A stretch of 41,215 bases of DNA, taken from a virus. How positions within the stretch are numbered: position 1 is the first letter of the stretch; every line of letters begins with the position of its first letter. Location of the stretch: the IMG/VR virus record IMGVR_UViG_3300031569_000013, positions 1 to 41,215 of that record; one strand, written 5' to 3'. Below are positions 1 through 12,543 of this stretch, piece by piece. A model generated the notes under the pieces. That model worked only from the letters and a program-made list of their open reading frames with translations, searched no databases and was not told where the DNA came from. Made by a program: the position numbers and the translations under genes.

Positions 1-11
1 AAATAGAAATT

Positions 12-257
12 ATGAAAGAAAATAAACTAATAGCAGTATTTATGGGTATGGAAGACTATCAAGAGATGGGCGAGTATGTCACACCTAACTACCACACCGA
101 ATGGAATTGGTTGATGCCTGTAATACAGAAATGTAGACAAGAGAACCGATTGGAGTATTTTGATAGGGTATACTATGCCATTGAAGAATGCGATATAAAC
201 GTAACCTACAAAGCAGTAGCAGAATTTATTAAAGAATATAACAAACAGAAAATATGA
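12..257 (+). CDS. Small phage protein, ABA-sandwich-like
   Basis: This 81-residue protein has the pattern of the phage 'ABA sandwich' family: an N-terminal beta strand ending in MG (KLIAVFMG, residues 5-12), a Y-H-T-x-W-x-W-L-M-P core (residues 27-36), and a C-terminal AVAEFIKEYN helix (residues 69-78). Members are common in phages of Bacteroidetes and their function is unknown to me. The ATG lies 11 bases from the window edge, so the upstream control region is missing. Its end overlaps the next ATG by four bases, which suggests translational coupling. The family assignment is by motif memory and is moderately secure; the role is open. Confidence 0.75.
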   Translation: MKENKLIAVFMGMEDYQEMGEYVTPNYHTEWNWLMPVIQKCRQENRLEYFDRVYYAIEECDINVTYKAVAEFIKEYNKQKI

Positions 258-490
258 ATTACGATAATTGGAAATTAGATACTCCACAATATAATGAAAT
301 AGTAAGTTCTTGTTGCGGATCTCAATACGTTTTGTCTATTGATTTTGAAAATGATATAGAAACGGAAAATAAATATTTATGTAATAATTGCCAAACTTTT
401 TGTGAAGTAATAAAAGACTATGAGTACGACCAAAACAAAAAAGATGATTATTACGAAAACTTATCTGATGAAATAAGGTTAAACCAATGA
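254..490 (+). CDS. Small zinc-ribbon-like protein
   Basis: This 78-residue protein has a CC pair at residues 20-21 and a CxxCxxxC group at residues 43-50 (CNNCQTFC), which together could form a small zinc-binding ribbon. The remainder is acidic and rich in Tyr and Asn. It starts by ATGA overlap with the gene before and ends by ATGA overlap with the lysis enzyme after, so it belongs to a tightly coupled operon. The zinc site is inferred from cysteine spacing only. A role in nucleic-acid or protein binding would be usual for such ribbons, but nothing specific can be said. Confidence 0.7.
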   Translation: MNYDNWKLDTPQYNEIVSSCCGSQYVLSIDFENDIETENKYLCNNCQTFCEVIKDYEYDQNKKDDYYENLSDEIRLNQ

Positions 491-996
491 AAAACTATCC
501 TTTAATATTAATAATGTTATTGGGTGTAAGTGAAAAAGAACACAACAATATACATTTAAAAGAAATTGTAAAATTAGAAAATATAAAAACAATTTCTGCT
601 ATAAAAATTAAACCGAAAAATATTCCTATAAAAATAAAAAAAGATTACTTGATTGATGCTATTATAAATGTAGAATCAAGAGGAGATAGTTTGGCTTATG
701 CAAAGGAAGAGAATGCAGTCGGTATTTTACAAATAAGACCAATAATGGTTAATGAAGTAAATAGACTTTTAAGAAAACAAAAGATCAAAAAAAGATATTG
801 CAATAAAGACAGATGGAACAAAACAAAGTCTATTGAGATGTTTAACATAGTCAAAGACTATTACTATAAAGACTCAAGTAATGAGGTTATTGCAAGATGT
901 TGGAATGGTGGAAGAAAAGGTTATAAGAGAAAATCAACTATTAATTATTGGGAAAAAGTTAAAATAGAATTAGGATATTTAAAAGAAATAGACTAA
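487..996 (+). CDS. SLT-type lytic transglycosylase (endolysin candidate)
   Basis: This 169-residue protein probably cleaves peptidoglycan glycan strands. It has a short hydrophobic N-terminus (residues 4-13) that may act as a signal or signal-anchor, a basic linker, then a compact transglycosylase domain. The catalytic glutamate is probably E63 in the motif NVESRGD (61-67), followed by the family's AVGILQI (77-83), then WNGG (139-142) and YWEKV (154-158). These blocks occur in the order expected for the SLT/goose-lysozyme-like fold. It lies next to a two-helix membrane protein (1012-1266), giving a plausible lysis pair. Its place among early + strand genes, rather than with the virion genes, is unusual; a virion-borne enzyme would be expected in the other arm. 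Confidence 0.82.
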   Translation: MKNYPLILIMLLGVSEKEHNNIHLKEIVKLENIKTISAIKIKPKNIPIKIKKDYLIDAIINVESRGDSLAYAKEENAVGILQIRPIMVNEVNRLLRKQKIKKRYCNKDRWNKTKSIEMFNIVKDYYYKDSSNEVIARCWNGGRKGYKRKSTINYWEKVKIELGYLKEID

Positions 997-1011
997 ATTT
1001 ATACTTTAATT

Positions 1012-1266
1012 ATGATATACGAAAAAAAACTAACAAAAGAAGAAATTGAAATATGTATAAGATTTATTAAAAAATTACTCCTTTTAATTCTTTATTTAAT
1101 TAATTTCTTCTCCTTAATATGGTTGTTATATGCTATGGGAGAAAATGAAATAAAAGTTAAAACAGATATTCCTAGATTTATATTTCATTTAGTAACATTT
1201 TTTGTTGTTGTATTACTGTATATCGAAAGTAAATTATTAATAAAAAACATAAATAAAATAAAATGA
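1012..1266 (+). CDS. Two-helix membrane protein, holin candidate
   Basis: This 84-residue protein has two strongly hydrophobic stretches, about residues 20-42 and 55-72, joined by a short polar loop, with charged ends (N-terminal EKKLTKEEIE, C-terminal KNINKIK). Size and topology fit small phage holins, and it sits 15 bases after the transglycosylase gene. No sequence family was recognised, so the holin call rests on topology and position only. It could equally be an unrelated inner-membrane protein. Its ATG is in the context AATTATG and its stop overlaps the next start (ATGA). Confidence 0.65.
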   Translation: MIYEKKLTKEEIEICIRFIKKLLLLILYLINFFSLIWLLYAMGENEIKVKTDIPRFIFHLVTFFVVVLLYIESKLLIKNINKIK

Positions 1267-1535
1267 AAGTAAAAATTCAACAAAGAAGTATTTATCACAA
1301 GTTTGCAGAATTAGAAATTGAAATTCCTGACAATGTTAAAGATATTCAAGATTATTTGCTTAACAACGAAAATAAATGGGTAGAAAATATAGATCATAAA
1401 ATAAATGAAGCAGAGTTTACTTATGGTTTTGGAACAGACTCCTATGCTAATTCTCAGTACAATTCTTTTATGAACGAACCCGAAGAAGAATCTGAATGGA
1501 TATATAAAACAGATGATGAGAGTGGACATTTATAA
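1263..1535 (+). CDS. Hypothetical protein
   Basis: This 90-residue acidic protein begins with a beta-like KVKIQQRSIYHKFAELEIEI segment, followed by an Asp/Glu-rich second half ending in DDESGHL. No catalytic motif or membrane segment is visible. It starts by ATGA overlap with the membrane protein upstream, which supports it as a real translated gene. Similar short acidic proteins are common in the early regions of flavobacterial phages; the function is unknown. Confidence 0.65.
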   Translation: MKVKIQQRSIYHKFAELEIEIPDNVKDIQDYLLNNENKWVENIDHKINEAEFTYGFGTDSYANSQYNSFMNEPEEESEWIYKTDDESGHL

Positions 1536-1556
1536 TATTAATCAATTAAAATAAAA

Positions 1557-1862
1557 ATGATACACATAACAGACGATAACTTTGTTTGGTTAGATGTAAC
1601 CAAAGATTGTCATTCTTGGAATAGAACTCAAGAATTATTTATGGGAAATGCTTTATATGAAGTTACTGATGAGGGTAGAGACTCTTTAATTGAAGAACCT
1701 GAATATGTGGATAAATCAATAAAAAGAGGTAATAGAATTTGTATTGAAGTAGGACATTTGCCTAAAAATAAAAGACCTTTAAATATTTGGACAGACACTA
1801 AAAAAAGATTAATAAATGGATATTGGTATGTAAAAATATCCGATCTAATAAATAAAAAATGA
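1557..1862 (+). CDS. Hypothetical protein
   Basis: This 101-residue protein has a mixed alpha/beta composition with several Trp residues (for example FVWLDVT near residue 10 and GYWYVKISDL near the C-terminus). No known domain was recognised. It begins 21 bases after the previous gene and overlaps the next by four bases (ATGA), consistent with an operon. A TAACTTTG string (1577-1584) lies inside its coding region and is treated as chance. Confidence 0.65.
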   Translation: MIHITDDNFVWLDVTKDCHSWNRTQELFMGNALYEVTDEGRDSLIEEPEYVDKSIKRGNRICIEVGHLPKNKRPLNIWTDTKKRLINGYWYVKISDLINKK

Positions 1863-2140
1863 AAACAGAAGATTTAATAAAAGAAGTTGGGCGAGAAGTA
1901 GTGATGCTATTGCTTGAAAAAAACAAAGCGTATGGAGATACTGCAAATAAACCACCAAAAATATTTTCTAAACTATCTGCAAAAGAAGGTATACTAGCTA
2001 GGATAGATGATAAGTTAAGCCGAATTAAAACTGTAGGACTTAACGACAAAACAGAAGATACTATGCTAGACTTAATAGGTTATCTTATTTTATATAGGGT
2101 TCAATGTAAAAAGGATGGACAAAATTTGGAAAAGAAGTAG
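1859..2140 (+). CDS. MazG/Nmad-like all-alpha protein
   Basis: This 93-residue helical protein carries the pattern KNKAYGDTA (residues 21-29), then ARIDDKLSRIK (about 45-55), then EDTMLDLIGYLILYRV (about 64-79). This arrangement resembles the family annotated as DUF1599 or 'nucleotide modification associated domain', which is related in pattern to MazG-type NTP pyrophosphohydrolases: an acidic helix pair able to bind a metal and nucleotide. A role in nucleotide-pool cleaning or in making modified nucleotides is therefore possible. No partner modification gene such as a thymidylate synthase homologue is seen in the window. It starts by ATGA overlap with the previous gene. Family resemblance is fairly clear; activity is inferred. 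Confidence 0.7.
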   Translation: MKTEDLIKEVGREVVMLLLEKNKAYGDTANKPPKIFSKLSAKEGILARIDDKLSRIKTVGLNDKTEDTMLDLIGYLILYRVQCKKDGQNLEKK

Positions 2141-2182
2141 AAAACATTTACATTTATATATTAACAAATCAAATCAAATAAA

Positions 2183-2368
2183 ATGGGAATTTCCAAAAAA
2201 ATGTTCGATCAAGAACAAGAAAAAAAATCTGTTACATTAGAGCAGTACTTAGAAAATGAATTAAAAGAAGCAGAGTATTACGCTGAAAGTCAGAGAGAAG
2301 TATTAAGTAACATATTTAATTCTTGGGAAGAGATCTTCGGAGAAAAAAGTAAAAATACAAACAATTAA
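2183..2368 (+). CDS. Hypothetical small protein
   Basis: This 61-residue acidic, helix-prone protein (SVTLEQYLENELKEAEYY in its middle) has no recognised domain. It lies after an AT-rich gap of 42 bases, the largest gap in this part of the operon, and eight bases before the next gene. The composition and co-directional packing suggest it is translated; the function is unknown. Confidence 0.55.
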   Translation: MGISKKMFDQEQEKKSVTLEQYLENELKEAEYYAESQREVLSNIFNSWEEIFGEKSKNTNN

Positions 2369-2376
2369 ATTTAATA

Positions 2377-2679
2377 ATGAAACAAAATATATTCAATACC
2401 TACGTTAGTGAAGTATGCAAAATTTTTAATGTAAAAAAGAAAATGCTTTTTACTAAAACAAAAAAGAGAGATGTAGTAGATGCTAGACAGTTGTTGTATT
2501 GGCTATGTAGAAGAAGACCTATGAATATAGTTTATATTAAAGAATATATGCTAGAAAATGGATATGATATAAGTCATTCAGTAATTCATTATGGTATAGC
2601 AGTAGTAGAACAAAAAGTTTCTAATGATGCAGACTATGTTGAAACAATAAACTCCATTTTAGATGAAGCTGAAGTATAA
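2377..2679 (+). CDS. DnaA domain-IV-like DNA-binding protein
   Basis: This 100-residue protein resembles the DNA-binding domain IV of the initiator DnaA without the AAA+ ATPase part. The stretch VKKKMLFTKTKKRD (19-32) matches the position of the family's start, VDARQLLYWLCRR (34-46) the RQ-x-x-MYL helix, and ISHSVIHYGIAVVEQKV (65-81) the signature H-[ST]-V-[IL]-x-A helix that inserts into the DnaA box. The match is recognisable but more diverged than that of the second such protein at 11030-11581. It precedes the recombination genes and could bind the phage origin, compete for host DnaA boxes, or act as a regulator. The call is by pattern only. Confidence 0.6.
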   Translation: MKQNIFNTYVSEVCKIFNVKKKMLFTKTKKRDVVDARQLLYWLCRRRPMNIVYIKEYMLENGYDISHSVIHYGIAVVEQKVSNDADYVETINSILDEAEV

Positions 2680-3112
2680 GTTAGAAGATATTTTTAATCA
2701 ATCTGTTAAAGATGATTACGCTATTTCAGTTGATGGAATGGGGTATGAGGCTAGAATGGTATATGGAATAAAAATAATCAAAGATTTAACGACTGAAAAT
2801 ATAGAAATTTTAAATACAACTCAAGGAGGAGATTATTATAAATCATTAAATGAATATGAGGTAGATATTTTTCTTGAAAAAGGTTGGAGGCAAGGTGTTT
2901 ATATGTTATCTTTGTCTAACTATCGTCTAAAACTAGACTTAATTGAAATTAAAATACATAAAGAAATCAATGGAAGATCTAGTATTAAGCAAATAAAAAC
3001 ACTCAAATCTCAAAGAGAAAGAATTTTGAGTAAATACACAGAAATCAATAATAAATTAAATATAATCAATTATGGTAGCAGTAAAAAAAACAAAAACAAA
3101 ATCGGTATTTGA
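2663..3112 (+). CDS. Hypothetical protein
   Basis: This 149-residue protein has an alpha/beta first half and a lysine-rich, coiled-coil-like C-terminal half (about residues 90-135). It overlaps the previous gene by 17 bases and the next by 41 bases. The long 3' overlap means its last residues are encoded in another frame of the annealing-protein gene. No known domain was recognised. Its invariable company with recombination genes here may hint at a DNA-metabolism role, but this is only positional. Confidence 0.65.
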   Translation: MKLKYKLEDIFNQSVKDDYAISVDGMGYEARMVYGIKIIKDLTTENIEILNTTQGGDYYKSLNEYEVDIFLEKGWRQGVYMLSLSNYRLKLDLIEIKIHKEINGRSSIKQIKTLKSQRERILSKYTEINNKLNIINYGSSKKNKNKIGI

Positions 3113-3722
3113 AACACTATCGTCAGTAAACGTAAATAAATACGTTGAGAAAAAAAATAATTTAACTTATCTATCTTGGGCATATGCTTGGGCAGAAACC
3201 TGCAAAGTATATCCTGATGCAACATATACTATATATGAAAATCCTGAAACAAAAGAGAACTACGACTACGATCCTGAGTTAGGGTTTATGTGTAAGACAT
3301 CTGTTACAATAGGTGGTAAAACATTACCAATGTGGCTACCCGTTATGGATGGTTCTAATAAAGCTATGAAAAAACAAAAGTATACGTTCACTAGCAGATA
3401 CGGAGATAAAGAAGTTCAGTCAGCTACTATGTTTGATATTAACAAAACAATTATGAGATGTTTAGTTAAGAACTTAGCTATGTTTGGAATGGGTGTTTAT
3501 ATATACGCAGGAGAAGATATGCCTATGGTTGAAGTAGAAACAAAGTCAGAAACAACTATGAAGCCACCTTTAACTTTAAGAGATGAAAAGTGGGAGTTTA
3601 TAGCTAAATTTGTTAAAGAAAATAAATCTTTAGGTTTAAAAAAACTTTTAGATAAAGTAGCTACAAAATATACTTTGTCCGCTTCAGTTCAAAATGAAAT
3701 TAAAAAAATAATTTCTAAATAA
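3072..3722 (+). CDS. Sak3-like single-strand annealing protein
   Basis: This 216-residue protein matches the DUF1071/SSAP_Sak family of phage single-strand annealing proteins. The landmarks are YLSWAYAWAE (33-42), a V-T-I-G-G strand (78-82), the highly characteristic MWLPVMDGSNKA (87-98), and FDINKTIMRCLVKNLAMFGMG (121-141, mostly helical). Such proteins coat single-stranded DNA and anneal complementary strands during phage recombination and replication. It is followed one base later by an exonuclease of the type that makes 3' single-stranded tails, forming a Red/RecET-like pair, and then by an SSB-like protein. The start overlaps the previous gene by 41 bases; a later in-frame Met before the YLSW motif is absent, so this start is preferred. 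Confidence 0.88.
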   Translation: MVAVKKTKTKSVFETLSSVNVNKYVEKKNNLTYLSWAYAWAETCKVYPDATYTIYENPETKENYDYDPELGFMCKTSVTIGGKTLPMWLPVMDGSNKAMKKQKYTFTSRYGDKEVQSATMFDINKTIMRCLVKNLAMFGMGVYIYAGEDMPMVEVETKSETTMKPPLTLRDEKWEFIAKFVKENKSLGLKKLLDKVATKYTLSASVQNEIKKIISK

Positions 3723-3723
3723 T

Positions 3724-4467
3724 ATGAACGAATCAAATAGCGAGGTCTTAAATAGACTTAGGGATGATGAGCAATATTATGGATCATTCGGAAAACAGTA
3801 TTTATCAAACTCAGATATTGGAACTCTACTTACTAATCCAAAACAATTTAGAGTTCCGCAAGAGGATAATGTTAACTTTCATAAAGGAAGGTATTTTCAT
3901 CAACTAATATTGGAACCTGAAAAAGCAAAAGAAACTGAGTTTGTTGATATTGGATCAAGAAACACAAAACTATATAGAGAACTAATAGAATCTCATAAGC
4001 AAGATATTGTTATGCTTGAAAAGGAAGGGCAAGAAATTAGAGATTGTGTAGATACTATGATGGGCAACTTTCCTTTTTTTGAAGGAATAAGACAAGAAGG
4101 TTGTGAATATGAGGTTCCCGCCATAAAAGAAATAGAGGGTTTATTATGGAAAGGAAAAGCAGATATTGTTTGTCCTGACAAGTTAATAGATTTAAAGTCT
4201 ACAAGTAATATAAAAGATTTTAAATGGTCAGCTAGAAAATACAATTACGATAGTCAATGTTATATATATCAAGAGTTATTCGGTAAACCATTAGTTTTTT
4301 ATGTAGTAGATAAAATTACTAAAATGCTAGGCATCTATCATCCGTCACCTGATTTTTTAGAGAGAGGTAAAAATAAAGTGGTCGAAGCAGTCAAGGTTTA
4401 TAAAAAATTCTATGGTTCAGACTCTAAGTTAGATATTAATGAATTCTTTATAGAGGATGTTCTTTAA
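3724..4467 (+). CDS. RecE/lambda-exo-like PD-(D/E)XK exonuclease
   Basis: This 247-residue protein is probably the exonuclease partner of the annealing protein. The motifs fit the PDDEXK exonuclease family (exodeoxyribonuclease VIII/DUF3799 type): KGRYFHQLILEP (54-65) is the GxxxHxxxL helix, an acidic strand E128-E130, GKADIV (144-149) supplies the catalytic Asp147, DLKST (156-160) supplies the D-x-K core with Lys158, and YDSQCYIYQ (175-183) is the QxxxY helix. It would resect duplex ends to produce single strands. Its 3' end overlaps a 41-residue ORF. Confidence 0.87.
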   Translation: MNESNSEVLNRLRDDEQYYGSFGKQYLSNSDIGTLLTNPKQFRVPQEDNVNFHKGRYFHQLILEPEKAKETEFVDIGSRNTKLYRELIESHKQDIVMLEKEGQEIRDCVDTMMGNFPFFEGIRQEGCEYEVPAIKEIEGLLWKGKADIVCPDKLIDLKSTSNIKDFKWSARKYNYDSQCYIYQELFGKPLVFYVVDKITKMLGIYHPSPDFLERGKNKVVEAVKVYKKFYGSDSKLDINEFFIEDVL

Positions 4468-4582
4468 AAGTAAACGGTTCAAGTGGTTCAAAGTTCCAAT
4501 GGAATGCAAGACTCGTGAGGAAAAAGAAAAACTTATCCTTAAAATAAAAAACAATTTGGAGCAAACAATTAAAATCAAATAA
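4457..4582 (+). CDS. Small basic protein (41 aa)
   Basis: A 41-codon frame begins at the ATG inside the exonuclease stop region (11-base overlap) and stops one base before the next gene's ATG. The product starts MFFKSKRFKW and continues with a Lys/Glu-rich helix-like half (REEKEKLILKIKNN). It fills exactly the otherwise unexplained 116 bases between exonuclease and SSB-like genes, which is the main support. No function is recognised. Confidence 0.55.
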   Translation: MFFKSKRFKWFKVPMECKTREEKEKLILKIKNNLEQTIKIK

Positions 4583-4583
4583 T

Positions 4584-4862
4584 ATGTCAGTACAAAAAGA
4601 AAAAATCTTTGCAGAGGGATTTTCATTTAAAAAAAGAGAAAATTCTCCTGATTGGATAATTGGAAATCAAGCTATCAAAGTAGATGAGGCCATTGCTTTT
4701 CTACAAGCCAACCAAAAAAAAGGGTGGGTAAACATTGATATTAAGCAGTCACAGAAAGGAACTTACTATTGTGAGTTAGATACTTGGGAAGCTACACCAA
4801 GAACAGAAACTCCACCTGCTCCTGCTGTAAATACAAAAGCTGAAGCTGATCTTCCTTTTTAG
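4584..4862 (+). CDS. SSB-like protein with acidic DLPF tail
   Basis: This 92-residue protein has a beta-rich body (residues 1-70) with aromatic residues well placed for single-stranded DNA contacts (F11, F13, W22, W48, Y60, W69), then a flexible Pro/Thr/Ala linker (72-86) and the C-terminal end EADLPF. The ending closely copies the acidic-hydrophobic tip of bacterial SSB (DDDIPF), which recruits replication and repair proteins. The body does not look like a full OB-fold SSB and is shorter, so it may be a compact phage version. It follows the annealing protein and exonuclease and is the last gene before a strong terminator. The function is inferred from tail and context. Confidence 0.65.
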   Translation: MSVQKEKIFAEGFSFKKRENSPDWIIGNQAIKVDEAIAFLQANQKKGWVNIDIKQSQKGTYYCELDTWEATPRTETPPAPAVNTKAEADLPF

Positions 4863-4885
4863 TGTTAATTAAAACAATTATTTTC

Positions 4886-4917
4886 AGGAGGAACTTTAAA
4901 GGTTCCTCCTTTTTTTA
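4886..4917 (+). terminator. Strong intrinsic terminator
   Basis: A perfect 9-bp stem, AGGAGGAAC (4886-4894) with GTTCCTCCT (4902-4910), encloses a 7-base loop and is followed by a run of T. It sits 23 bases after the SSB-like gene on the + strand and should stop transcription of the first early operon. The AGGAGG here is part of the stem, not a ribosome site. Confidence 0.9.
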
Positions 4918-5083
4918 CACTAAAAATGTTAAATGTCAAAAAATATTTCTATATATATACTTTTATATATTATATAATTTTCTTTTCTTTACCTATATAA
5001 GAAAAAAAACTAACATAATCAACATTACTACTGATAATCAATAAGTTACAAAAATTAAATCAACATTAAATCAACATAAACCT
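4918..5083 (+). promoter_or_regulatory. AT-rich control gap, candidate origin or promoter region
   Basis: This gap between the terminator and the primase-helicase gene is almost pure A/T in its first half (alternating TATATA tracts near 4950-4977) and carries three direct repeats in its second half. Because transcription from upstream should stop at 4917, a promoter for the primase operon must lie here; near matches to the -7 element (TAATTTTC, TACTTTTA) occur but none is exact. The mix of AT-rich stretch, iteron-like repeats and adjacent primase also fits a replication origin. Confidence 0.45.
5017..5079 (+). repeat. Three AATCAACAT direct repeats (iteron-like)
   Basis: AATCAACAT occurs at 5017-5025, 5058-5066 and 5069-5077. 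The first two copies extend to AATCAACATTA. The last two are spaced 11 bases apart, about one helical turn, as expected for cooperative protein binding; the first lies 41 bases before the second. They end five bases before the primase-helicase ATG. They may be binding sites for an initiator or repressor. Confidence 0.6.
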
Positions 5084-7513
5084 ATGTCGCAATCAAAAAA
5101 CAAGGTAACAATATTCAAAAACATTAAAGAAACAGAGACTCCATTCCATAGAGAAATAGGCTTAGTCATAAAAAGAATTAAAGATGGAGCAACAAAAGAT
5201 TTAGTTAAGCAAATTAGAAAAACAAAAGACAAAACCGAACGTAACGAATTAAAAAAACTACTACCTGCGGTGTGTTTTTCAGGGGTATTCAACAAAAGAA
5301 AAGATCAAGCAATACAAGAACATAGTGGGTTTATATGTTTAGATTTTGATGGGTATGAAAAAAGAAAAGTATTGTCAGAACACAAAGAGAAACTTAGTAA
5401 AGATCCTTATGTATACTGCGTATTTGTATCTCCTTCAGGAAATGGACTTAAAGCACTTGTAAAGGTTCCTGCGGACAAAGAAAATCACGTTAATTATTTT
5501 AATTCTTTAGGAATATACTTTGATTCTGAATACTTCGACAAAGCCTGTAAAAACATTTCTAGGGTATGTTACGAGTCTTATGATCCTTTAGTTCATATTA
5601 ACGAAAATTCTTCTTTATGGGACACTATTGCGGAGCCTGAGTACAAGGAGGTTGTAAAACATAAGGACACTCCTACTATACCTATTACAGATGAAAATAA
5701 AATAGTAGAAATACTAACTAAGTGGTGGGAGAAAAAATATCCTATGATAGAGGGTCAAAGAAATCAGAATGTCTTTGTTCTAGCTATGGCCTTTAATGAT
5801 TATGGAATAGCTAAATCACTTGCGGGATATATATTAGGTCAGTATGTTAATAAAGACTTTACTGTTAGTGAAATTAATAGGACTATTGATTCTGCATATG
5901 CTAACACTTCAAAATTTGGAACTAAATATTATGAAGATGAAGACCAAGTAAATATTATAAAAGGAAAATTAAGAAAGGGAACATCAAAAAAAGAAATACG
6001 TAGTCAACTAAGTGATTCAGGTGTTGATGATCAACTAATAGATTCTGTAATAAATAGAATTGACAAAGAAAATGCCAAACAAACATTTTGGGAAAAAAAT
6101 GAAAAAGGTGTTATTAAAATAGTTCATTATAGTTTTAAAAAGTTTTTAGAGGATAACGGATTCTATAAATATTGTCCTGAAGGAGGTAAAAATTATGTGT
6201 TTGTTAAGGTTACTAATAACTTAATAGACCACTCTAATGAAAAAGAAATAAAAGATTTTGTTCTTAATTTTTTAATGGACAATGATGACTTGAGCATATA
6301 TAACTACTTTGCAGATAACGTAAGGTATTTTAGGGAAGAATTTTTAACTATTTTAGGAACTATAGATATATACTTTGTAGAGGACAAAAAAGATTCTGCG
6401 TACTTATACTATCAGAATTGTGCAGTTAAAATAACAAAAGAACTTATTGAGCCAATAGACTATTTAGACTTAGGTGGGTATGTTTGGAAAGACCATATTA
6501 TAAATAGAAAATTTAATATATGTGATGAGTATGTTTGTGACTACTCAGTATTTATAAATAACATATGTGCCAATGACAAAGAAAGAATTAAAACTATGGA
6601 ATCTACTATAGGCTTTATGATGCACGGATATAAAAATTTAAGTTACTGTCCTGCTATAATATTAAATGATGAAGTAATATCAGACAACCCTGAAGGAGGA
6701 ACAGGAAAGGGTCTTTTTATGAATGCACTTACACAAATGAAAAAGTTAGTAGTTATAGATGGTAAAGCATTTGCATTTGAAAAATCATTTCCTTATCAAC
6801 TTGTATCAGCAGATACACAAATACTTTGTTTTGATGATGTTAAAAAACACTTTGATTTTGAAAGGCTTTTTAGTGTAGTGACAGAGGGTTTAACTTTAGA
6901 GAAAAAGAATAAAGATGCTATTAAAATACCATTTAGTAGGTCTCCTAAAATTGGAATAACTACTAATTACGCTATAAAAGGAACAGGTAATTCTTTTGCT
7001 AGAAGAAAATGGGAGATTGAATTACATCCTGCATACAATAAAAATTTTACTCCCTTAGATGAATTCGGTAAACACTTCTTTGCAGATTGGGATGATGATG
7101 AATGGTGTTTATTTGATAATTATATGACTTCTTGCTTACAAGATTTTTTGAACACAGGACTTGTATCTAGTAAATTTGTTAATCTCAAAATAAGACAATT
7201 ATCTGCTGAAACATCTCACGATTTTATAGAGTGGTGCGGATTAGTTGAAGGTCATCAGAAAAATGAAAGTTTAGTGAAAGGATCTAAATTAGTTATGCAA
7301 GATTTATACTTTGACTTCATAAACGAATATCCGGATTATGGGCCAAAGGCAAAAATGACAATAAGCAGAACAAGATTTTATAAGTGGTTAATTTCTTATT
7401 CAAGATATATAAGTCAAGGATTTAACCCTGAAGAAGGAAGAGATACCGCAGGAAGATGGTTTAGAATATTAACAACAAAAGATATTGAGATACAGTCAAA
7501 ACTACCAATATGA
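5084..7513 (+). CDS. Primase-helicase (VirE_N-like plus SF3 helicase)
   Basis: This 809-residue protein is the likely replicative primase-helicase. Residues about 20-185 match the BT4734/VirE N-terminal domain, a primase-polymerase-like fold: ICLDFDG (84-90, metal-binding Asp), SPSGNGLKALVKV (116-128) and a later SRVCYESYDP (159-168). A helical linker (about 200-290) resembles PriCT-type domains. The C-terminal half is an SF3-type AAA+ helicase: Walker A in PEGGTGKG near 536-543, Walker B in ILCFDD near 580-585, a sensor-like ITTN near 625, and an arginine-finger-like FARRKW near 638. Together they could open the origin, unwind DNA and prime synthesis. It is the first gene after the repeat-bearing gap. 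No DNA polymerase gene is in the window. Confidence 0.88.
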   Translation: MSQSKNKVTIFKNIKETETPFHREIGLVIKRIKDGATKDLVKQIRKTKDKTERNELKKLLPAVCFSGVFNKRKDQAIQEHSGFICLDFDGYEKRKVLSEHKEKLSKDPYVYCVFVSPSGNGLKALVKVPADKENHVNYFNSLGIYFDSEYFDKACKNISRVCYESYDPLVHINENSSLWDTIAEPEYKEVVKHKDTPTIPITDENKIVEILTKWWEKKYPMIEGQRNQNVFVLAMAFNDYGIAKSLAGYILGQYVNKDFTVSEINRTIDSAYANTSKFGTKYYEDEDQVNIIKGKLRKGTSKKEIRSQLSDSGVDDQLIDSVINRIDKENAKQTFWEKNEKGVIKIVHYSFKKFLEDNGFYKYCPEGGKNYVFVKVTNNLIDHSNEKEIKDFVLNFLMDNDDLSIYNYFADNVRYFREEFLTILGTIDIYFVEDKKDSAYLYYQNCAVKITKELIEPIDYLDLGGYVWKDHIINRKFNICDEYVCDYSVFINNICANDKERIKTMESTIGFMMHGYKNLSYCPAIILNDEVISDNPEGGTGKGLFMNALTQMKKLVVIDGKAFAFEKSFPYQLVSADTQILCFDDVKKHFDFERLFSVVTEGLTLEKKNKDAIKIPFSRSPKIGITTNYAIKGTGNSFARRKWEIELHPAYNKNFTPLDEFGKHFFADWDDDEWCLFDNYMTSCLQDFLNTGLVSSKFVNLKIRQLSAETSHDFIEWCGLVEGHQKNESLVKGSKLVMQDLYFDFINEYPDYGPKAKMTISRTRFYKWLISYSRYISQGFNPEEGRDTAGRWFRILTTKDIEIQSKLPI

Positions 7514-7752
7514 CAGAATCAGATGAATTAGATATGGCTTATACTAATTCTTTTAATATTATAATTTTAGATTATGATTGGGAAGAGATTGTAGAAGGAA
7601 AGTATCCATTCTTTGCTCATAATATTGCTAGAAGATTTCCAAAAAAATATGAATTAGAAAGATTAATAAAACACTTTCTTGAAAAAGAAGATTACATAAA
7701 ATGCAAAAGTTTAAAGGAGTATTTAGAGAGGGTGTACGAGAACGAAATATAG
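7510..7752 (+). CDS. Hypothetical protein
   Basis: This 80-residue acidic protein starts by ATGA overlap with the primase-helicase and is overlapped at its end by the helicase gene if that gene uses its first ATG. The C-terminal half looks helical (RLIKHFLEKEDYIKCKSLKE). No domain was recognised; coupling with two replication enzymes suggests an accessory role. Confidence 0.6.
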   Translation: MTESDELDMAYTNSFNIIILDYDWEEIVEGKYPFFAHNIARRFPKKYELERLIKHFLEKEDYIKCKSLKEYLERVYENEI

Positions 7753-9179
7753 GATATTCTGATTATCAAATGCACAGACAATGTTCTTTGTATTTTGGGG
7801 TAATGAATAAAACTAAAAAAGTAAAAGTAGGGAGAGGAAAAAATGCAATTTTTAAAGAGGAAAAAATTTATATTGAAAATGCTGAAACAGAAAAATTAAA
7901 TTTACATAGTTTAGAACACTATAAAAACCTTATGACAAAACCATCAAAAATAAAATTTAGAGACTATCAAAAAAAAATAATAGTTCAAGGATCAGAGTTG
8001 TTAATTTTAAACAACTTTCTATACTTAACAATGGAAGTAAGAACAGGAAAGACCCTTACTAGTCTAGGTATAGCTCAACTATTAAATAGTAAAAATGTTT
8101 TGTTTGTTACAAAAAAAAGAGCTATAAGCAGTATTGAAAATGATTTTACATTACTAAGACCTGACTTTGATTTAACCGTTATTAATTATGAATCTTTACA
8201 CAAAGTAGAAGACGTTGGAAATTTTGATTTGGTCGTTTGCGATGAGGCACATTGTATGGGAGCTTTTCCTAAACCTAATAGGAATTCTAGATATATTAAA
8301 GAAGTTATAAAACACAATCCATATGTCATCTTATTGTCAGGAACACCAACTCCCGAATCTTATAGTCAAATGTATCATCAAGTTTGGGGAATAAAAAACA
8401 ATCCTTTTAAAGAGTATTCTAACTTTTATAAGTTTGCAAAAAGGTTTATTAAATTAAGTCAGTTAAAAATAAACGGTATGATGATTAACACCTATAAAGA
8501 TGGGTTAATAGATATTTTATCTGAGATGAATAAGTATACTATATCTTATACCCAAAAAGAAGCAGGGTTTAAGGTTGACACTAAAGAACATATTCTTAAT
8601 GTAAGAATGAAAGACAAAACTTATGATATTGCTAAAAGATTAAAAAAAGATTTAGTAATAGAAGGAAAAGAAGAAACCATATTAGCTGACACCTCTGTAA
8701 AACTTATGATGAAACTGCATCAGATTTATTCAGGAACTATAAAGTTTGAGTCAGGAAAATCTATGATAATAGACTTATCTAAAGCTAAATTTATAAACGA
8801 TAATTTTTACGATAAGAAAATAGGTATATTTTATAAATTCAAACAAGAACTTGCCGCAATAAAAGAGGTTTATAAAGACAATATTTGTACTGACCTAGAT
8901 ACATTTGAAAACACAGACAAGTCTATTGCTCTTCAGATTATTTCCGGTAGAGAAGGAATTTCATTAAAACAAGCGGAAGCATTAGTTTATTATAACATTG
9001 ACTTTAGTGCGACAAGTTATTGGCAATCTAGAGACAGAATGACAACTAAAGAAAGATTAAAATCAGATGTATATTGGATATTCTCAGAAGGCGGAATGGA
9101 AAAAGACATCTATAAAGCAGTAATAAAAAAGAAAGACTATACAATTAATCATTTTAAAAAAGATTATGCCATATATTAA
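7701..9179 (+). CDS. DEAH/SNF2-like helicase
   Basis: This 492-residue protein is an SF2 helicase or DNA translocase. Motif I is VRTGKT (about 112-117), motif II is CDEAH (about 179-183), motif III is LLSGTPTPE (about 212-220), and a motif VI-like QSRDRM appears near 443-448. The layout is that of short phage SNF2/DEAH helicases. It may unwind recombination or replication intermediates together with the nucleases downstream. The first ATG (7701) gives a 52-base overlap with the previous gene; ATG codons at 7770 and 7803 are alternatives that remove the overlap and keep all motifs, so the start is uncertain. Confidence 0.85.
   Translation: MQKFKGVFREGVRERNIGYSDYQMHRQCSLYFGVMNKTKKVKVGRGKNAIFKEEKIYIENAETEKLNLHSLEHYKNLMTKPSKIKFRDYQKKIIVQGSELLILNNFLYLTMEVRTGKTLTSLGIAQLLNSKNVLFVTKKRAISSIENDFTLLRPDFDLTVINYESLHKVEDVGNFDLVVCDEAHCMGAFPKPNRNSRYIKEVIKHNPYVILLSGTPTPESYSQMYHQVWGIKNNPFKEYSNFYKFAKRFIKLSQLKINGMMINTYKDGLIDILSEMNKYTISYTQKEAGFKVDTKEHILNVRMKDKTYDIAKRLKKDLVIEGKEETILADTSVKLMMKLHQIYSGTIKFESGKSMIIDLSKAKFINDNFYDKKIGIFYKFKQELAAIKEVYKDNICTDLDTFENTDKSIALQIISGREGISLKQAEALVYYNIDFSATSYWQSRDRMTTKERLKSDVYWIFSEGGMEKDIYKAVIKKKDYTINHFKKDYAIY
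9158..9175 (+). repeat. 18-bp direct repeat, copy 1
   Basis: AAAAGATTATGCCATATA spans the end of the helicase gene and contains the ATG of the 63-residue ORF. An identical copy lies at 9366-9383, 208 bases further on. Confidence 0.9.
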
Positions 9180-9357
9180 AAAATCAGAATACGAGTTTAT
9201 CCAAGATAAATTAAGATGGAGTAAAGACATAATTGAACATCATAGAATGTTTGAAGAGTACATTCGTGAACACAATTATGAATTGTGGAGTTTTGCTCAT
9301 TCCGATATAAGTAGAAAAACAGGAGCAACAAAACCTTGGGATAAGGGAACAATTTGA
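9166..9357 (+). CDS. Hypothetical small protein
   Basis: This 63-residue protein begins MPYIKKSEYEF, overlaps the helicase stop by 14 bases and ends 16 bases before the HNH gene. The middle is helix-like with several Trp, Glu and His residues (HHRMFEEYIREHNYELW). No domain was recognised. It lies exactly between the two copies of an 18-bp repeat, so it may have been inserted with, or displaced by, the neighbouring HNH gene. Confidence 0.55.
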   Translation: MPYIKKSEYEFIQDKLRWSKDIIEHHRMFEEYIREHNYELWSFAHSDISRKTGATKPWDKGTI

Positions 9358-9365
9358 GAACTATT

Positions 9366-9383
9366 AAAAGATTATGCCATATA
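9366..9383 (+). repeat. 18-bp direct repeat, copy 2
   Basis: This copy is identical to 9158-9175 and contains the ATG (9374) of the HNH endonuclease gene. The two copies give both downstream proteins the same first three residues, MPY. Confidence 0.9.
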
Positions 9384-9877
9384 AAGATAAAGAAAAACAA
9401 AAAGAGTACTTACGTATGCACTACGAAAGGAATAAGGAAAAAAATAGAGATGCTAAAACAAAAGCCATAAAAGAATGGAGACTTAATAATAAAGAACGCG
9501 TGTCTTCTTACAATGCCGATTACGCTAAGAAACATAGAGATGATATAAATAAAAGAGAAAAGAATAGAAGACATAATGACCCTTTATACAGGATAAAACT
9601 AAATTTAAGAAGTAGAATAAGAAAGACTATTATTAATAAGACAGGAAAAACTACAGACATATTAGGATGTGGTTACGATGAAGTCAGAGATTATATTAGT
9701 AATAAATTTAAAGAAGGAATGAGTTGGGATAATTATGGTGAGTGGCATATAGATCATATTAAACCATTAGCTATGGCTAATACAGAAAAAGAAACATACG
9801 AGTTATGTCATTACACTAACCTACAGCCATTATGGGCTATTGAAAACTTACAAAAAGGATGGAAAAATTTAAATTAA
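9374..9877 (+). CDS. HNH endonuclease
   Basis: This 167-residue protein has a long basic helical N-terminal part (residues 1-85, rich in Lys, Arg and Glu) and a C-terminal HNH nuclease: WHIDHIKP (124-131) supplies the metal-binding His/Asp-His, and HYTNLQPLWAIENLQKG (146-162) supplies the Asn residues of the second half. The cysteine pairs that brace some HNH folds are absent. Free-standing phage HNH genes of this type are often homing endonucleases, mobile between related phages, or nicking enzymes. The 18-bp duplication at its start supports recent movement or rearrangement here. The nuclease call is firm; the homing role is inferred. Confidence 0.87.
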   Translation: MPYKDKEKQKEYLRMHYERNKEKNRDAKTKAIKEWRLNNKERVSSYNADYAKKHRDDINKREKNRRHNDPLYRIKLNLRSRIRKTIINKTGKTTDILGCGYDEVRDYISNKFKEGMSWDNYGEWHIDHIKPLAMANTEKETYELCHYTNLQPLWAIENLQKGWKNLN

Positions 9878-9896
9878 ATTATAAAAACAAAACAAT

Positions 9897-10058
9897 ATGA
9901 AAAAACTAGCAATAATAGGAGGTCTTAGTTTAATGACCGCAGGAAGTACATATATGATGTGGCATCCACACGCACCACAATTTGATTTAAACCCAAACAC
10001 TTTAGCCATAGCAACAGGAGGTTTTTTTGTTGCAGTAGGACTTACGTACAGATTTTAA
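9897..10058 (+). CDS. Small two-segment membrane protein
   Basis: A 53-residue frame starts MKKLAIIGGLSLMTAG, which looks like a signal or first membrane helix, then a short polar stretch with MMWHPHAPQFDLN, and a second hydrophobic segment (about 35-50) ending in YRF. It fills the 190-base gap between the HNH and first nuclease genes. It could be a small holin-like or envelope protein, but no family was recognised. Confidence 0.6.
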   Translation: MKKLAIIGGLSLMTAGSTYMMWHPHAPQFDLNPNTLAIATGGFFVAVGLTYRF

Positions 10059-10067
10059 AAAAATATT

Positions 10068-10481
10068 ATGAGTAAAAAATTTGAAACAAAAGAAGACTTG
10101 GAAAGACAACGCAAAGCGATTAGTCTGTTCTGTGAAAAGTTTGTAGCTAGTTATGAGGAACTTGATGAATGGGACATAGATTATTTAGTTACTAAAGATG
10201 AAAAAAAATGTTACGTTGAAGTTAAAGGCAGAAAAAGAAACATAAAAAACGCTTTTCCTTTACCGGTGGCTGCTAGAAAAATGGTTAAACTTTGTGATAA
10301 AAAAGTACCTGCAATTATTATATGGGCCTGTTATGACGGATTAATATATGCAAATATAAAAGACTTAGAATCTACAGGAAAAATTAGTGGAAGACTTAAA
10401 GAAAGAGAGGGTTCGTATAATGATACAGAATATATGTTATATTTTGATGATCAAGATTCTTTTTTTACCATAAATAACTAA
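10068..10481 (+). CDS. PD-(D/E)XK nuclease-like protein
   Basis: This 137-residue protein has the core of a small PD-(D/E)XK nuclease: an N-terminal helix (residues 9-27), an acidic strand ELDEWDIDYLV (31-41) providing the Asp, and CYVEVKGRKR (48-57) providing the E-x-K pair (Glu51, Lys53). A later hydrophobic strand (AIIIWACYDG) fits the fold. Such enzymes act as repair or junction nucleases. It is the first of three similar small nucleases within 2.4 kb (also 10500-10739 and 11996-12412). The target DNA structure is unknown. Confidence 0.72.
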   Translation: MSKKFETKEDLERQRKAISLFCEKFVASYEELDEWDIDYLVTKDEKKCYVEVKGRKRNIKNAFPLPVAARKMVKLCDKKVPAIIIWACYDGLIYANIKDLESTGKISGRLKEREGSYNDTEYMLYFDDQDSFFTINN

Positions 10482-10485
10482 ATTG

Positions 10486-10493
10486 TATCTTTG
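10486..10493 (+). promoter_or_regulatory. TATCTTTG, -7-type promoter element
   Basis: The site matches the Bacteroidetes -7 consensus TAnnTTTG and lies six bases before the ATG of the VRR-NUC gene, between two genes. A -33 TTG at the usual distance is not visible. A 14-base string containing it (10484-10497) recurs at 11347-11360 inside a gene. Late genes on the other strand carry the same element. Confidence 0.4.
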
Positions 10494-10499
10494 TTATGA

Positions 10500-10739
10500 A
10501 TGACAGAGCAGCAGATACAATCTAAAAGAATAAAGCAGTTGGAAGAAGAAGGATATTATGTTCTTAAATTAATTAAGACCAATAAGAATGGAATACCTGA
10601 TATTTTAGCAATACCAAAAAATGTTAAAGTATTATTTAGTGAAGTAAAAACACCAAAAGGGAAGGTATCTAAATTACAGGAATATAGGTTAAAAGAATTA
10701 GATAAATATGGATTTAGAACTGAAGTATATAGAGGATAA
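10500..10739 (+). CDS. VRR-NUC domain nuclease
   Basis: This 79-residue protein is a minimal VRR-NUC enzyme, a branch of the PD-(D/E)XK nucleases. The motifs are an N-terminal helix (Q5-E17), GIPDIL (31-36) with the catalytic Asp34, FSEVKTPKG (46-54) with Glu48 and Lys50, and SKLQEYRL (57-64) with the conserved Gln60. Single-domain viral VRR-NUC proteins can cleave Holliday-like junctions, so a resolvase role before packaging is plausible. The end overlaps the next gene by 32 bases. Confidence 0.88.
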   Translation: MTEQQIQSKRIKQLEEEGYYVLKLIKTNKNGIPDILAIPKNVKVLFSEVKTPKGKVSKLQEYRLKELDKYGFRTEVYRG

Positions 10740-11097
10740 ATTATCTTATGAAATTGATGAGTGGTTTTTTTCTCAATTAGAATTATTTTCTATACCTGAT
10801 GCTACAGTTATTATAGGTCAAATACTTTCTATTTTAGATGAACTTCCTGAAAAAGATGAGTGGTCACAAGAAGTTGCAGGGGTAGTGCACAAGGAAAGTC
10901 CTGTGTTTTTTGTAATTGAATATTTAAAAGAAACAGTAAGTATACCAATATTAATAGACATCAACGAAATAGAAGTTGATGAATATTTAGATTTTATATC
11001 AAGTCAAAAATCAATCAAATACTATTATAATGAAAGAAGAAATAAATATCCTGATGAGGAAGCACGAGGAGTTCAGTTATTTGAAAACAATAATTAG
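10708..11097 (+). CDS. Hypothetical acidic protein
   Basis: This 129-residue acidic protein has alternating helices and hydrophobic strands (ATVIIGQILSILDELPEKDE near residues 31-50). No catalytic motif was seen. It overlaps the VRR-NUC gene by 32 bases and the DnaA-like gene by 68 bases, so its ends share sequence with two other reading frames. The long overlaps and shared direction suggest coupled expression. Confidence 0.6.
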   Translation: MDLELKYIEDKLSYEIDEWFFSQLELFSIPDATVIIGQILSILDELPEKDEWSQEVAGVVHKESPVFFVIEYLKETVSIPILIDINEIEVDEYLDFISSQKSIKYYYNERRNKYPDEEARGVQLFENNN

Positions 11098-11581
11098 AGA
11101 CTTACTAGGTGTAGATGTTTTAGAAGATAAATCTAGAGTTCAACAAGTTGTAAATGCCAAAATGATATACGCATATATTCTTAAGGAAAAAGGATATGGA
11201 TGTAGTGTTATAGCTAAATCAATGGGAATGAACCACGCAACAGTTTTACACTACTTCAAAACAATTCCTTGGTATTTAAAAAGTGACATTCACCTCAAGA
11301 AAAACTACGACAGAATAAAAAAAGAGTACTATAATGAAACTGACCCTGTATCTTTGTTATCAGAAAATGAACTAAAAACAGACATAATTTCTTTGAAAAT
11401 TGAAAATAAAAACTTATCTTCGGAAATAAAAAGATTAAATTCTGTTATTTCTAGCTTGACTAAAAACAAAGAAAAGCTACAAGATTTGTTCAAATGTGTA
11501 GAAAATAGGACAAGAAAAGGAACAGAACAACAGTTGTTATATAAATTAAATAGGTTTTACAATGGTGTTTACGACAAGTGA
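11030..11581 (+). CDS. DnaA domain-IV-like protein with coiled coil
   Basis: This 183-residue protein resembles DnaA domain IV without the ATPase part. Residues 40-80 carry the helix NAKMIYAYILKEKGYG, then the helix-turn-helix CSVIAKSMGMNHATVLHYF, a close copy of the DnaA signature x-G-x-x-H-[AST]-T-V-x-H. A heptad-like coiled coil follows (about 115-155), which could mediate pairing. It may bind DnaA-box-like DNA as an initiator helper, competitor or regulator. It overlaps the previous gene by 68 bases; a second ATG at 11054 would shorten the overlap. It is the better of two such proteins in this arm. Confidence 0.75.
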   Translation: MKEEINILMRKHEEFSYLKTIIRDLLGVDVLEDKSRVQQVVNAKMIYAYILKEKGYGCSVIAKSMGMNHATVLHYFKTIPWYLKSDIHLKKNYDRIKKEYYNETDPVSLLSENELKTDIISLKIENKNLSSEIKRLNSVISSLTKNKEKLQDLFKCVENRTRKGTEQQLLYKLNRFYNGVYDK

Positions 11582-11810
11582 TATTGACAAAGTTCTCTCT
11601 TATAAAACTTGGAACACTAAAAAGAAAGTTGACGAACTTCTTAGAATGGACTGCTCAATGTACTGTAACTTAGGAAGTGATTCTTCTAAAAGTGACAAAG
11701 GAGAAGTGAGAGTTTCTTCAAGAAAAATCTATTTAGGAATTAAAAGTATAGATGAGTCCACAGGAACTTTGTTTTTACAAACAATGGACTCTAATAAAAA
11801 TAAAACCTAA
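11562..11810 (+). CDS. Hypothetical protein
   Basis: This 82-residue protein begins with a helical MVFTTSDIDKVLSYKTWN stretch, then a small Ser/Lys-rich middle and a beta-like end. It overlaps the DnaA-like gene by 20 bases and is followed one base later by the next ATG. No domain was recognised. Confidence 0.6.
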   Translation: MVFTTSDIDKVLSYKTWNTKKKVDELLRMDCSMYCNLGSDSSKSDKGEVRVSSRKIYLGIKSIDESTGTLFLQTMDSNKNKT

Positions 11811-11811
11811 T

Positions 11812-12006
11812 ATGCCATTAGAGCCGTCTGCTTATGATAAAGAACGCATAGCACACATCAATCACTTGATGGACACAATAAACGACTCTACTTCCGAAAT
11901 ATATGAATTACTTATTGATCGTGAATTTAATTCACTAAAAAAAGAAATAAAAAATTTAATGTCAATTCTAAAAGACATTTCAACTTCTGTAGAAGATGAT
12001 ATATGA
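11812..12006 (+). CDS. Hypothetical helical protein
   Basis: This 64-residue, mostly helical acidic protein starts MPLEPSAYDKERI. The ATG at 11812, one base after the previous stop, is preferred to an upstream in-frame ATG at 11752, which would run 59 bases into the previous gene. The rest reads as two helices (HINHLMDTINDSTSEIYELL and LKKEIKNLMSILKDI) that could pair. The end overlaps the next gene by 11 bases. The function is unknown. Confidence 0.6.
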   Translation: MPLEPSAYDKERIAHINHLMDTINDSTSEIYELLIDREFNSLKKEIKNLMSILKDISTSVEDDI

Positions 12007-12412
12007 TGGAAAAATATTTTTAGAAAAAGACTTGTTTTCTCTTTTAAAAAAGAACTTTATTCCTGATTTACAAAGAACAAAAAAAACAAATTCTTCTTAT
12101 GATTGTTATTCTACTAAATTTAATTTAGACATTGAATTAAAATGCAGACGAACTCATTATGACGATTTAATTATAGAAAAATCTAAATACAAATCTTTAA
12201 TGAATAGGTGTTTAGATTTGCAAACCATACCTGTATATATAAATTCTACACCTAAAGGAATATGGGCATTCTACATTGCTGAAATTAGAATGACTTGGAT
12301 TAAAAAAAACTTACCAAAACAAACAGACTTTTCTAAAAAATACCATATTAAAAAAGATATTAGTTATATAAATATAAAAGAAGGAATAGATTTAGTTGCT
12401 CTTTTTCCTTGA
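11996..12412 (+). CDS. PD-(D/E)XK nuclease-like protein
   Basis: This 138-residue protein has a short N-terminal helix, a basic loop, then the strand pair YDCYSTKFNLDIELKCRR (35-52) with the pattern D-x-E-x-K (Asp45, Glu47, Lys49), and a later VYINSTPKGIWAFYI strand (80-94). This order fits a small PD-(D/E)XK nuclease such as a junction resolvase. It is the last gene of the + arm, and its final 21 bases overlap the end of the last gene of the - arm. The fold call is by motif only. Confidence 0.7.
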   Translation: MIYDGKIFLEKDLFSLLKKNFIPDLQRTKKTNSSYDCYSTKFNLDIELKCRRTHYDDLIIEKSKYKSLMNRCLDLQTIPVYINSTPKGIWAFYIAEIRMTWIKKNLPKQTDFSKKYHIKKDISYINIKEGIDLVALFP

Positions 12413-12532
12413 CTTATTAGGACTTAAGCTTTCAGGTATGTATCCTTTCTTATAAGACTTACTCCAATCTTCAGCCATTTCAGGCTTATTAGCATACATC
12501 CATCTTTTTTGTTTTTCACTTTTAAAAGGCAT
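12392..12532 (-). CDS. Small basic protein (46 aa)
   Basis: A 46-codon frame reads MPFKSEKQKRWMYANKP and goes on to a Lys/Ser-rich end (SPNKSRKKSN). This beginning is familiar from short proteins in many phages, which supports it as real. It starts 11 bases after the stop of the 2298-residue virion gene and ends inside the last + strand gene (21-base tail-to-tail overlap). The function is unknown; the basic, aromatic N-terminus could bind nucleic acid or protein. Confidence 0.72.
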   Translation of the reverse strand: MPFKSEKQKRWMYANKPEMAEDWSKSYKKGYIPESLSPNKSRKKSN

Positions 12533-12543
12533 ATATAAATATT

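Follow-up and report, generated by a model that had tools for sequence, protein, structure and literature searches.

What is the function of the longest non-coding gap among the early genes of this phage, and which protein reads it? The window, by which we mean the whole stretch of DNA that was analysed, is a virus record of 41,215 bases (class linear), with early genes on the + strand up to ~12.4 kb and late genes, including those for the portal and the terminase, on the - strand. An earlier note had suggested that the gap before the primase-helicase gene is either an iteron origin or an operator, and the iteron origin now appears to be better supported. We propose that replication probably starts in this gap, which the phage's own primase-helicase would recognise through short repeats.

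The phage and the gap

The closest record that we found in the phage collection is MW202828, a circular podovirus of 60,850 bases (Manatee Spring). More remote relatives of the primase are found in phages of Flavobacterium, Nonlabens, Cellulophaga, Polaribacter, Maribacter, Tenacibaculum, and Bacteroides, so the host is likely to be a member of the Bacteroidota. Three contigs with related primases (L191, L192, and L193) belong to two metagenome-assembled genomes that are labelled Aliivibrio and Pseudomonadales; we assume that these are possibly misbinned phage contigs.

The primase-helicase (Table 1) matches BT4734-like_N at residues 56-168, and its match to DUF5906, from which its helicase class would follow, is slightly below the cut-off. 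Its N-terminus has a weak match to a PrimPol model, far below the cut-off, and no Toprim match at E 0.001. Its C-terminal domain has neither a Pfam match nor a significant sequence match in the PDB, so a DNA-binding fold for this domain is only putative. The 92-amino-acid protein that is encoded just before the gap did not match anything in Pfam or PHROGs; given its C-terminal tail (ADLPF), it is probably a single-strand DNA-binding protein. At the left end of the window (487-996) is a protein with a weak match, slightly below the cut-off, to the transglycosylase SLT domain.

Table 1. Coordinates of the candidate origin, its parts, and nearby genes. Positions are in the window unless another locus is named.
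Feature	Position	Strand	Basis
DnaA-domain-IV protein A	2377..2679	+	PF08299 match; predicted model best vs 3pvp/1j1v
Sak annealing protein	start 3072	+	
Exonuclease	start 3724	+	
Small 92-aa protein, C-terminal tail ADLPF	4584..4862	+	tail read from sequence
Whole intergenic element, candidate origin copy 1	4863..5083	+	stop of 92-aa ORF to primase ATG
Terminator hairpin and T tract of upstream operon	4886..4917	+	hairpin 4886-4910, 11 pairs, loop of 3, T tail
Two degenerate inverted iterons (ATGTTAAATGTCA)	4926..4938	-	read from sequence
AT-rich tract, candidate unwinding region	4940..5006	.	composition
Iteron 1, degenerate (AAACTAACAT)	5007..5016	+	
Iteron 2 (AATCAACAT)	5017..5025	+	
Palindrome element TGATAATCA-ATA-AGTTA	5032..5048	+	
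Iteron 3 (AATCAACAT)	5058..5066	+	
Iteron 4 (AATCAACAT)	5069..5077	+	
Primase-helicase, proposed initiator and iteron reader	5084..7513	+	BT4734-like_N 56-168; covariation
Primase C-terminal 120 residues (690-809), residue 738 Met in the window	7151..7510	+	covariation
Helicase	start 7701	+	
DnaA-domain-IV protein B, long C-terminal helix	11030..11581	+	PF08299 below cut-off; model best vs 1j1v/3pvp
tRNA-Arg (TCT) behind copy 2, example from a relative	L165:1679-1753		

At 221 nt, the gap is indeed the longest non-coding gap on the early strand (among the gaps between 25 early-strand ORFs), as the earlier note had it; the second-largest is 190 nt (9878-10067) and is occupied by a 53-amino-acid ORF (9897-10058, MKKLAIIGGLSLMTAG...). 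This ranking ignores a mechanically called 60-amino-acid GTG ORF (4862-5044) that spans most of the gap. Because just 11 of 56 non-redundant gaps contain an ORF of at least 50 amino acids, we consider this ORF unlikely to be a gene.

The gap was said to be AT-rich, and the 80 nt from 4940 are 88.8% A+T, which is reached by 0.05% of the window's 80-nt windows. The three reported copies of AATCAACAT are present, with the last two 11 bp apart, and there is one further exact copy in the window (at 15654). The last 110 nt of the gap contain three instances of CRACAY, as compared to 0.16 in dinucleotide shuffles (0 of 2,000 shuffles reached three). Three features were absent from the note: the fourth, degenerate, repeat (5007-5016); the palindrome; and the inverted repeats. 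The reported terminator is present as well. Of the 56 non-redundant gaps, 47 have a hairpin followed by a T run (folding in the relatives was limited to stretches that precede T runs), but the hairpin alone is not beyond chance: a scan of positions 1-13000 found two terminators, as compared to 2.8 in shuffles. An Rfam search of the window did not find any matches.

Conservation in related phages

Using the primase to scan IMG/VR, we identified 205 relatives and retained the best 80 of them. The start codon could be set in 75 of the 80 loci (omitting L003, L042, L061, L065, and L066) as well as in the window. When ORFs were called mechanically, the gap measured 184-248 nt in 56 of these 76 loci; in most of the others, it is interrupted by internal ORFs. 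There were 75 gaps with enough DNA, or 56 after removing redundancy; L081 and L011 were left out of the repeat counts (n = 54).

When aligned, these gaps have a common order, from which individual members deviate: the terminator, often inverted repeats that resemble ATGTYRAATGTCA, a pyrimidine or AT tract, iterons, a palindrome, and more iterons. The first two iterons are 9 bp apart. The palindrome (TGATWATCAnnnAGTTA) is followed by two or three iterons that are 11 bp apart, the last of which finish at or near the start codon of the primase. CRACAY occurs 2.76 times per gap versus 0.25 times in shuffles, and at least two instances are present in 47 of the 54 gaps. The inverted motif RTGTYG occurs 0.44 times per gap versus 0.03 times in shuffles, with at least one instance in 23 of the 54 gaps; the inverted pair in the window falls outside this stricter motif. 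Thus the repeats are conserved, and the comparison with related phages does not refute the proposal. Two traits of iteron origins are present, namely direct repeats at fixed spacing and an adjacent AT-rich tract (judged by composition only). The suggested check of GC skew gave no such signal: at fourfold-degenerate sites, strand composition does not change at the gap (34 loci, p = 0.30).

Among the matches listed in a search of the open-access literature, no title or start of an abstract describes such an element; subscription journals are mostly outside this scope.

A second copy of the element

The palindrome occurs again elsewhere in the related genomes. We built a sequence-only model of the element (90 nt, trained on 28 primase gaps) and searched for it in 38 records, which include two pairs of near-copies (G009/G010 and G007/G008). 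Of the 38 records, 37 have one or more matches at E 0.1, and 26 have two matches on the same strand at E < 1e-4. (Copy 1, the primase copy, of many of these two-copy records was used to train the model; copy 2 never was.) Copy 2 lies upstream of copy 1 by 9.2-12.3 kb in 25 records and by 16.0 kb in one, with seven records counted as circular. As for the other twelve records, the window and five others end too close to the primase copy to reveal a second copy; G001 and G012 have a weaker second match (E 4e-4 and E 0.006); and G021, G022, G023, and G033 have one or no match at E < 1e-4. In six more distant phages, the model had no match at E 1 in five; the sixth, Maribacter phage Panino, has a match (E 5.6e-5) inside a coding sequence, which we take to be due to chance.

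Copy 2 has the same layout, usually including the inverted repeats and the tract. A tRNA-Arg (TCT) gene is present in 10 of 15 scanned copy-2 regions (two near-copies), one of which has two extra tRNAs, and 5 of the 15 have none. In the seven regions that we inspected (L165-L170 and L172), the tRNA is directly behind copy 2 or within ~100 nt. Several loci have a site resembling a promoter -7 box that faces left, ahead of copy 2. In MW202828, groES- and groEL-like genes are annotated next to copy 2 (L164:40671-42561).

A repeat-palindrome-repeat layout that adjoins a tRNA gene in many relatives could also be a recombination or attachment site, with arm repeats around an inverted core. We consider this highly improbable and put it aside, as matches to recombinases are absent: a tyrosine integrase was found in none of 38 records, some of which are fragments, but in 14 of 14 control genomes, and a serine resolvase was found in none of the 21 records searched, again including fragments, but in 10 of 14 control genomes.

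Alternatively, the gap might control transcription of the primase operon as an operator or promoter, with the primase-helicase or some other regulator bound at the iterons and replication starting elsewhere. With a terminator before the gap and a gene after it, the primase operon needs either a promoter or read-through, and because the gap must also allow transcription of this operon, we keep a possible operator role for copy 1. Also, in several relatives, the first early gene is preceded by a palindrome that lacks iterons, and two copy-2 regions (L165 and L166) have a rightward TAnnTTTG box immediately before the array or the tRNA, so a role in transcription is possible there. TAnnTTTG is the -7 box of Bacteroidota promoters. 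However, this box is absent from the last 180 nt of all 75 primase gaps, as compared to its presence in 189 of 1,520 random and mostly coding 180-nt stretches from these loci, so we set aside a host promoter as the identity of the gap. Furthermore, copy 2 has the same layout with no same-strand protein gene behind it: to the right of copy 2, the first ORF of 60 amino acids or more is encoded on the opposite strand in 14 of 14 placed loci (L165-L177 and L180). (The count is restricted to ORFs of this size; in L175, a 65-amino-acid ORF overlaps copy 2.) The apparent reader of the iterons, the primase-helicase, also argues against a purely regulatory site. Overall, we view the operator explanation as unlikely.

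The lone palindromes (L165:2388-2404, L166:2571-2587, and L170:2382-2398) match TGATWATCAnnnAGTTA with one mismatch and precede the first early ORF by ~28-100 nt. In some relatives, boxes that resemble TATATTTG are close to the lone palindrome. The first early ORF of one of these relatives (L165:2505-3401) encodes an ArdC-like anti-restriction protein (PF08401 and PF18818).

Covariation of the repeats with residue 738 of the primase

Variation in the repeats points to the primase-helicase as their likely reader. Position 6 of the iteron is either A or G (CAACA or CGACA), and arrays are either pure or mixed. Of the 56 arrays in the first set, 12 are mixed and 44 have a single letter (the latter include one array that has no scored repeat). 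In the held-out set described below, 42 of 84 arrays are mixed, and we therefore scored an array as G if at least half of its repeats carry G. We will refer to the preferred letter as the dialect.

We compared the dialect to the alignment columns of seven proteins (2,039 columns in total) across 51 loci, of which 28 are G and 23 are A. (Five of the 56 loci had fewer than two scored repeats and were left out.) Residue 738 of the primase ranked first of the 2,039 columns, with a corrected information of 0.69; the next column has 0.45. All 28 G loci have Lys at this position, while 21 of the 23 A loci have another residue (Met in 14, Leu in 3, Gln in 2, His in 1, and Ile in 1) and two have Lys. 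Other high-scoring columns in the C-terminal region of the primase are 729, 737, 774, 788, 793, and 799. Columns of the exonuclease and the annealing protein also score highly, as expected from shared ancestry.

Two further scans provided a held-out set of 87 contigs, from 160 rows, after removing contigs that were used earlier or were repeats. (L232, L261, L266, L269, and L286 were left out because of partial matches or scant upstream DNA.) Requiring at least two repeats removed three contigs and left 84. Among these, Lys was found with 68 G arrays and 1 A array, and other residues were found with 11 A arrays (Thr in 4, Met in 3, Phe in 2, Leu in 1, and Val in 1) and 4 G arrays, all of which are mixed arrays with Thr. 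If we consider only pure arrays, Lys is found with 36 G and 1 A, and other residues with 5 A and 0 G. The association persists among the 62 non-redundant contigs (Lys with 50 G and 1 A, others with 8 A and 3 G; p = 4e-7) and if primases that are at least 85% identical to one in the first set are excluded (n = 40; Lys with 29 G and 0 A, others with 8 A and 3 G; p = 2e-6). Across both sets, the exceptions are three Lys genomes with A arrays and three non-redundant Thr genomes whose mixed arrays were scored as G.

We also asked how the association compares to expectations from the phylogeny of the primase, using a tree of 113 primases from both sets that was built from residues 1-690 only. By parsimony, the dialect changes 10 times on this tree, and the state of residue 738 (Lys or not) changes 6 times. 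The observed information (0.57) was not reached in any of 5,000 simulations, whose 99.9% point was 0.35, and residue 738 again ranked first among the columns of the primase. In contrast, residue 738 was not ranked first in a per-position covariation analysis of 27 loci. (Sixteen loci had been excluded by name and others could not be anchored, which cost 14 of the 28 G loci.) We infer that shared ancestry accounts for this outcome.

Copy 2 provides another view of the dialect. The two copies share their dialect (Spearman correlation 0.92 across 23 genomes, ignoring kinship among them). Two genomes were scored later: the two copies are concordant in G032 and discordant in MW202828, which has Lys, AAAG in copy 1, and GGGGG in copy 2. 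Residue 738 predicts the dialect of copy 2 in 24 of 24 genomes (15 with Lys and G, 9 with others and A), or 26 of 26 with G032 and MW202828 added. Not included are G020 (Ser), which has no scorable repeat in copy 2, G010 (a near-copy of G009), G001, and G012.

Taken together, we think it likely that the element is a two-copy iteron origin that is read by the C-terminal domain of the primase-helicase. The mixed arrays, the discordant copy 1 of MW202828, and the two copy-2 regions with -7 boxes temper our confidence in the origin slightly and make the operator explanation a little more likely.

The DnaA-like proteins

The phage also encodes two proteins that resemble domain IV of DnaA (A and B), so the iterons might instead be altered DnaA boxes (TTATCRACA versus TTATCCACA) that these proteins read. 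PF08299 matches in 37 of 38 records, above the cut-off in 26, and A and B are found jointly across this phage group, on either side of the primase. The predicted models of A (pLDDT 89.7) and B (pLDDT 90.2) are both best matched by DnaA domain IV bound to its box (3pvp and 1j1v), with no match reaching E 0.001. Protein B keeps the equivalent of Arg399 of E. coli DnaA and carries the motif NHATVLH, which we take to correspond to DHTTVLH in E. coli DnaA. Some iterons (TTATCGACAT) are one position away from a DnaA box.

Despite the resemblance of WWATCRACA to TTATCCACA and the conservation of A and B, covariation favored the primase: the best column is 0.28 in A and 0.27 in B, versus 0.69 for residue 738. 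Base-specific contacts of DnaA are attributed to residues 399, 423, 432-435, and 438-439 in a portion of PMC5043019, and the residues that are equivalent to 432-435 of E. coli DnaA do not strictly track the dialect. At DnaA position 433, protein B leans towards Asp with G and Asn with A, with many exceptions, so we did not use this as evidence. The gap in the window does not contain TTATCCACA with up to one mismatch, and the whole window contains 8 such sites, as compared to 12.9 expected by chance; exact boxes lie far from the gap, at 1706-1714 and 24952-24960. Runs of TAC/TAG, as in the DnaA-trio motif (described in part of PMC10797057), are present in 9 of 54 primase gaps and several copy-2 regions and are absent from the gap in the window, so we do not claim a DnaA-trio as part of the element.

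Thus, among the proposed binders, covariation favors the primase-helicase over the two DnaA-like proteins, and it seems quite improbable that the latter read the origin. The palindrome is a candidate target for A and B.

Comparison with known origins

The satellite phage P4 has two separate iteron regions, ori and crr, whose repeats differ in sequence from those of the gap. In P4, the alpha protein uses a winged-helix domain to bind the origin repeats and also carries out unwinding and priming, according to a section of PMC4234260. Similarly, one protein would bind the repeats, unwind, and prime here, with covariation pointing to its C-terminal domain as the binder. However, P4 has a Toprim-type primase (in the same section of PMC4234260), whereas ours matches BT4734-like_N, and the winged helix is known in alpha, whereas our C-terminal domain lacks a Pfam match or a significant PDB sequence match.

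Phage SPP1 has two origins, 12 kb apart, that are bound by G38P, and the second is thought to block forks and to trigger a switch to sigma replication (part of PMC3485210). As with oriL and oriR of SPP1, the two copies of our element are distant (9-16 kb apart); they would share a single reader, and their dialects mostly agree. In SPP1, the initiator (G38P), the loader, and the helicase are separate proteins (as stated in that part of PMC3485210), while here the primase-helicase would itself be the reader. The element might therefore act like P4 alpha and SPP1 combined, by analogy, but we assign it to neither type because the primase differs from that of P4 and the initiator differs from that of SPP1.

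The domain order is similar to that of the pRN1 ORF904 type (an archaeo-eukaryotic primase, an SF3 helicase, and a C-terminal winged helix). For those proteins, the relevant portion of PMC4234260 suggests assembly at a stem-loop and describes the pRN1 origin as lacking an iteron structure; here, we propose an iteron array. Finally, like bacterial oriC, the element has repeats that resemble DnaA boxes beside an AT-rich tract, and two proteins with DnaA domain IV are encoded. In contrast to oriC and DnaA, the repeat carries A or G at position 6, there is no TTATCCACA in the gap, the DnaA matches cover domain IV only, and the dialect follows the primase.

Proposed mechanism and significance

We suggest that the C-terminal domain of the primase-helicase binds the WATCRACAT repeats that flank the palindrome, as covariation implies. 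The adjacent AT-rich tract would then open, the helicase and primase parts of the protein would start replication, and the 92-amino-acid protein with the SSB-like tail would coat the strands. Binding at copy 1 might also regulate the primase gene. Copy 2 would be read by the same protein, consistent with the observed agreement in dialect, and it may act as another origin, as a helper site, or as a barrier to forks.

More speculatively, and with considerable doubt, a large group of uncultured podoviruses may rely on a PrimPol-like primase-helicase of their own to recognise the origin, with residue 738 setting the dialect (Lys reads G, and mostly hydrophobic residues read A). The phages would then fall into groups with compatible origins, and these would have switched several times. 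Through its duplication, the element would link early replication from one copy with a later mode of replication at the second, and the two DnaA-domain-IV proteins might read the palindrome and set the timing or block initiation by the host.

An unread gap in the genomes of uncultured phages has become a specific hypothesis about an origin, its reader, a residue, and a repeat, and because the residue tracks the repeat, recognition by phages of their own origins can be tested. If our proposal is correct, then initiators that combine a primase and a helicase may use iterons, where part of PMC4234260 suggested a stem-loop for the archaeo-eukaryotic ones. Origin recognition by a fused primase-helicase could then be read from metagenomes, and phages could be grouped by the dialect of their origins.
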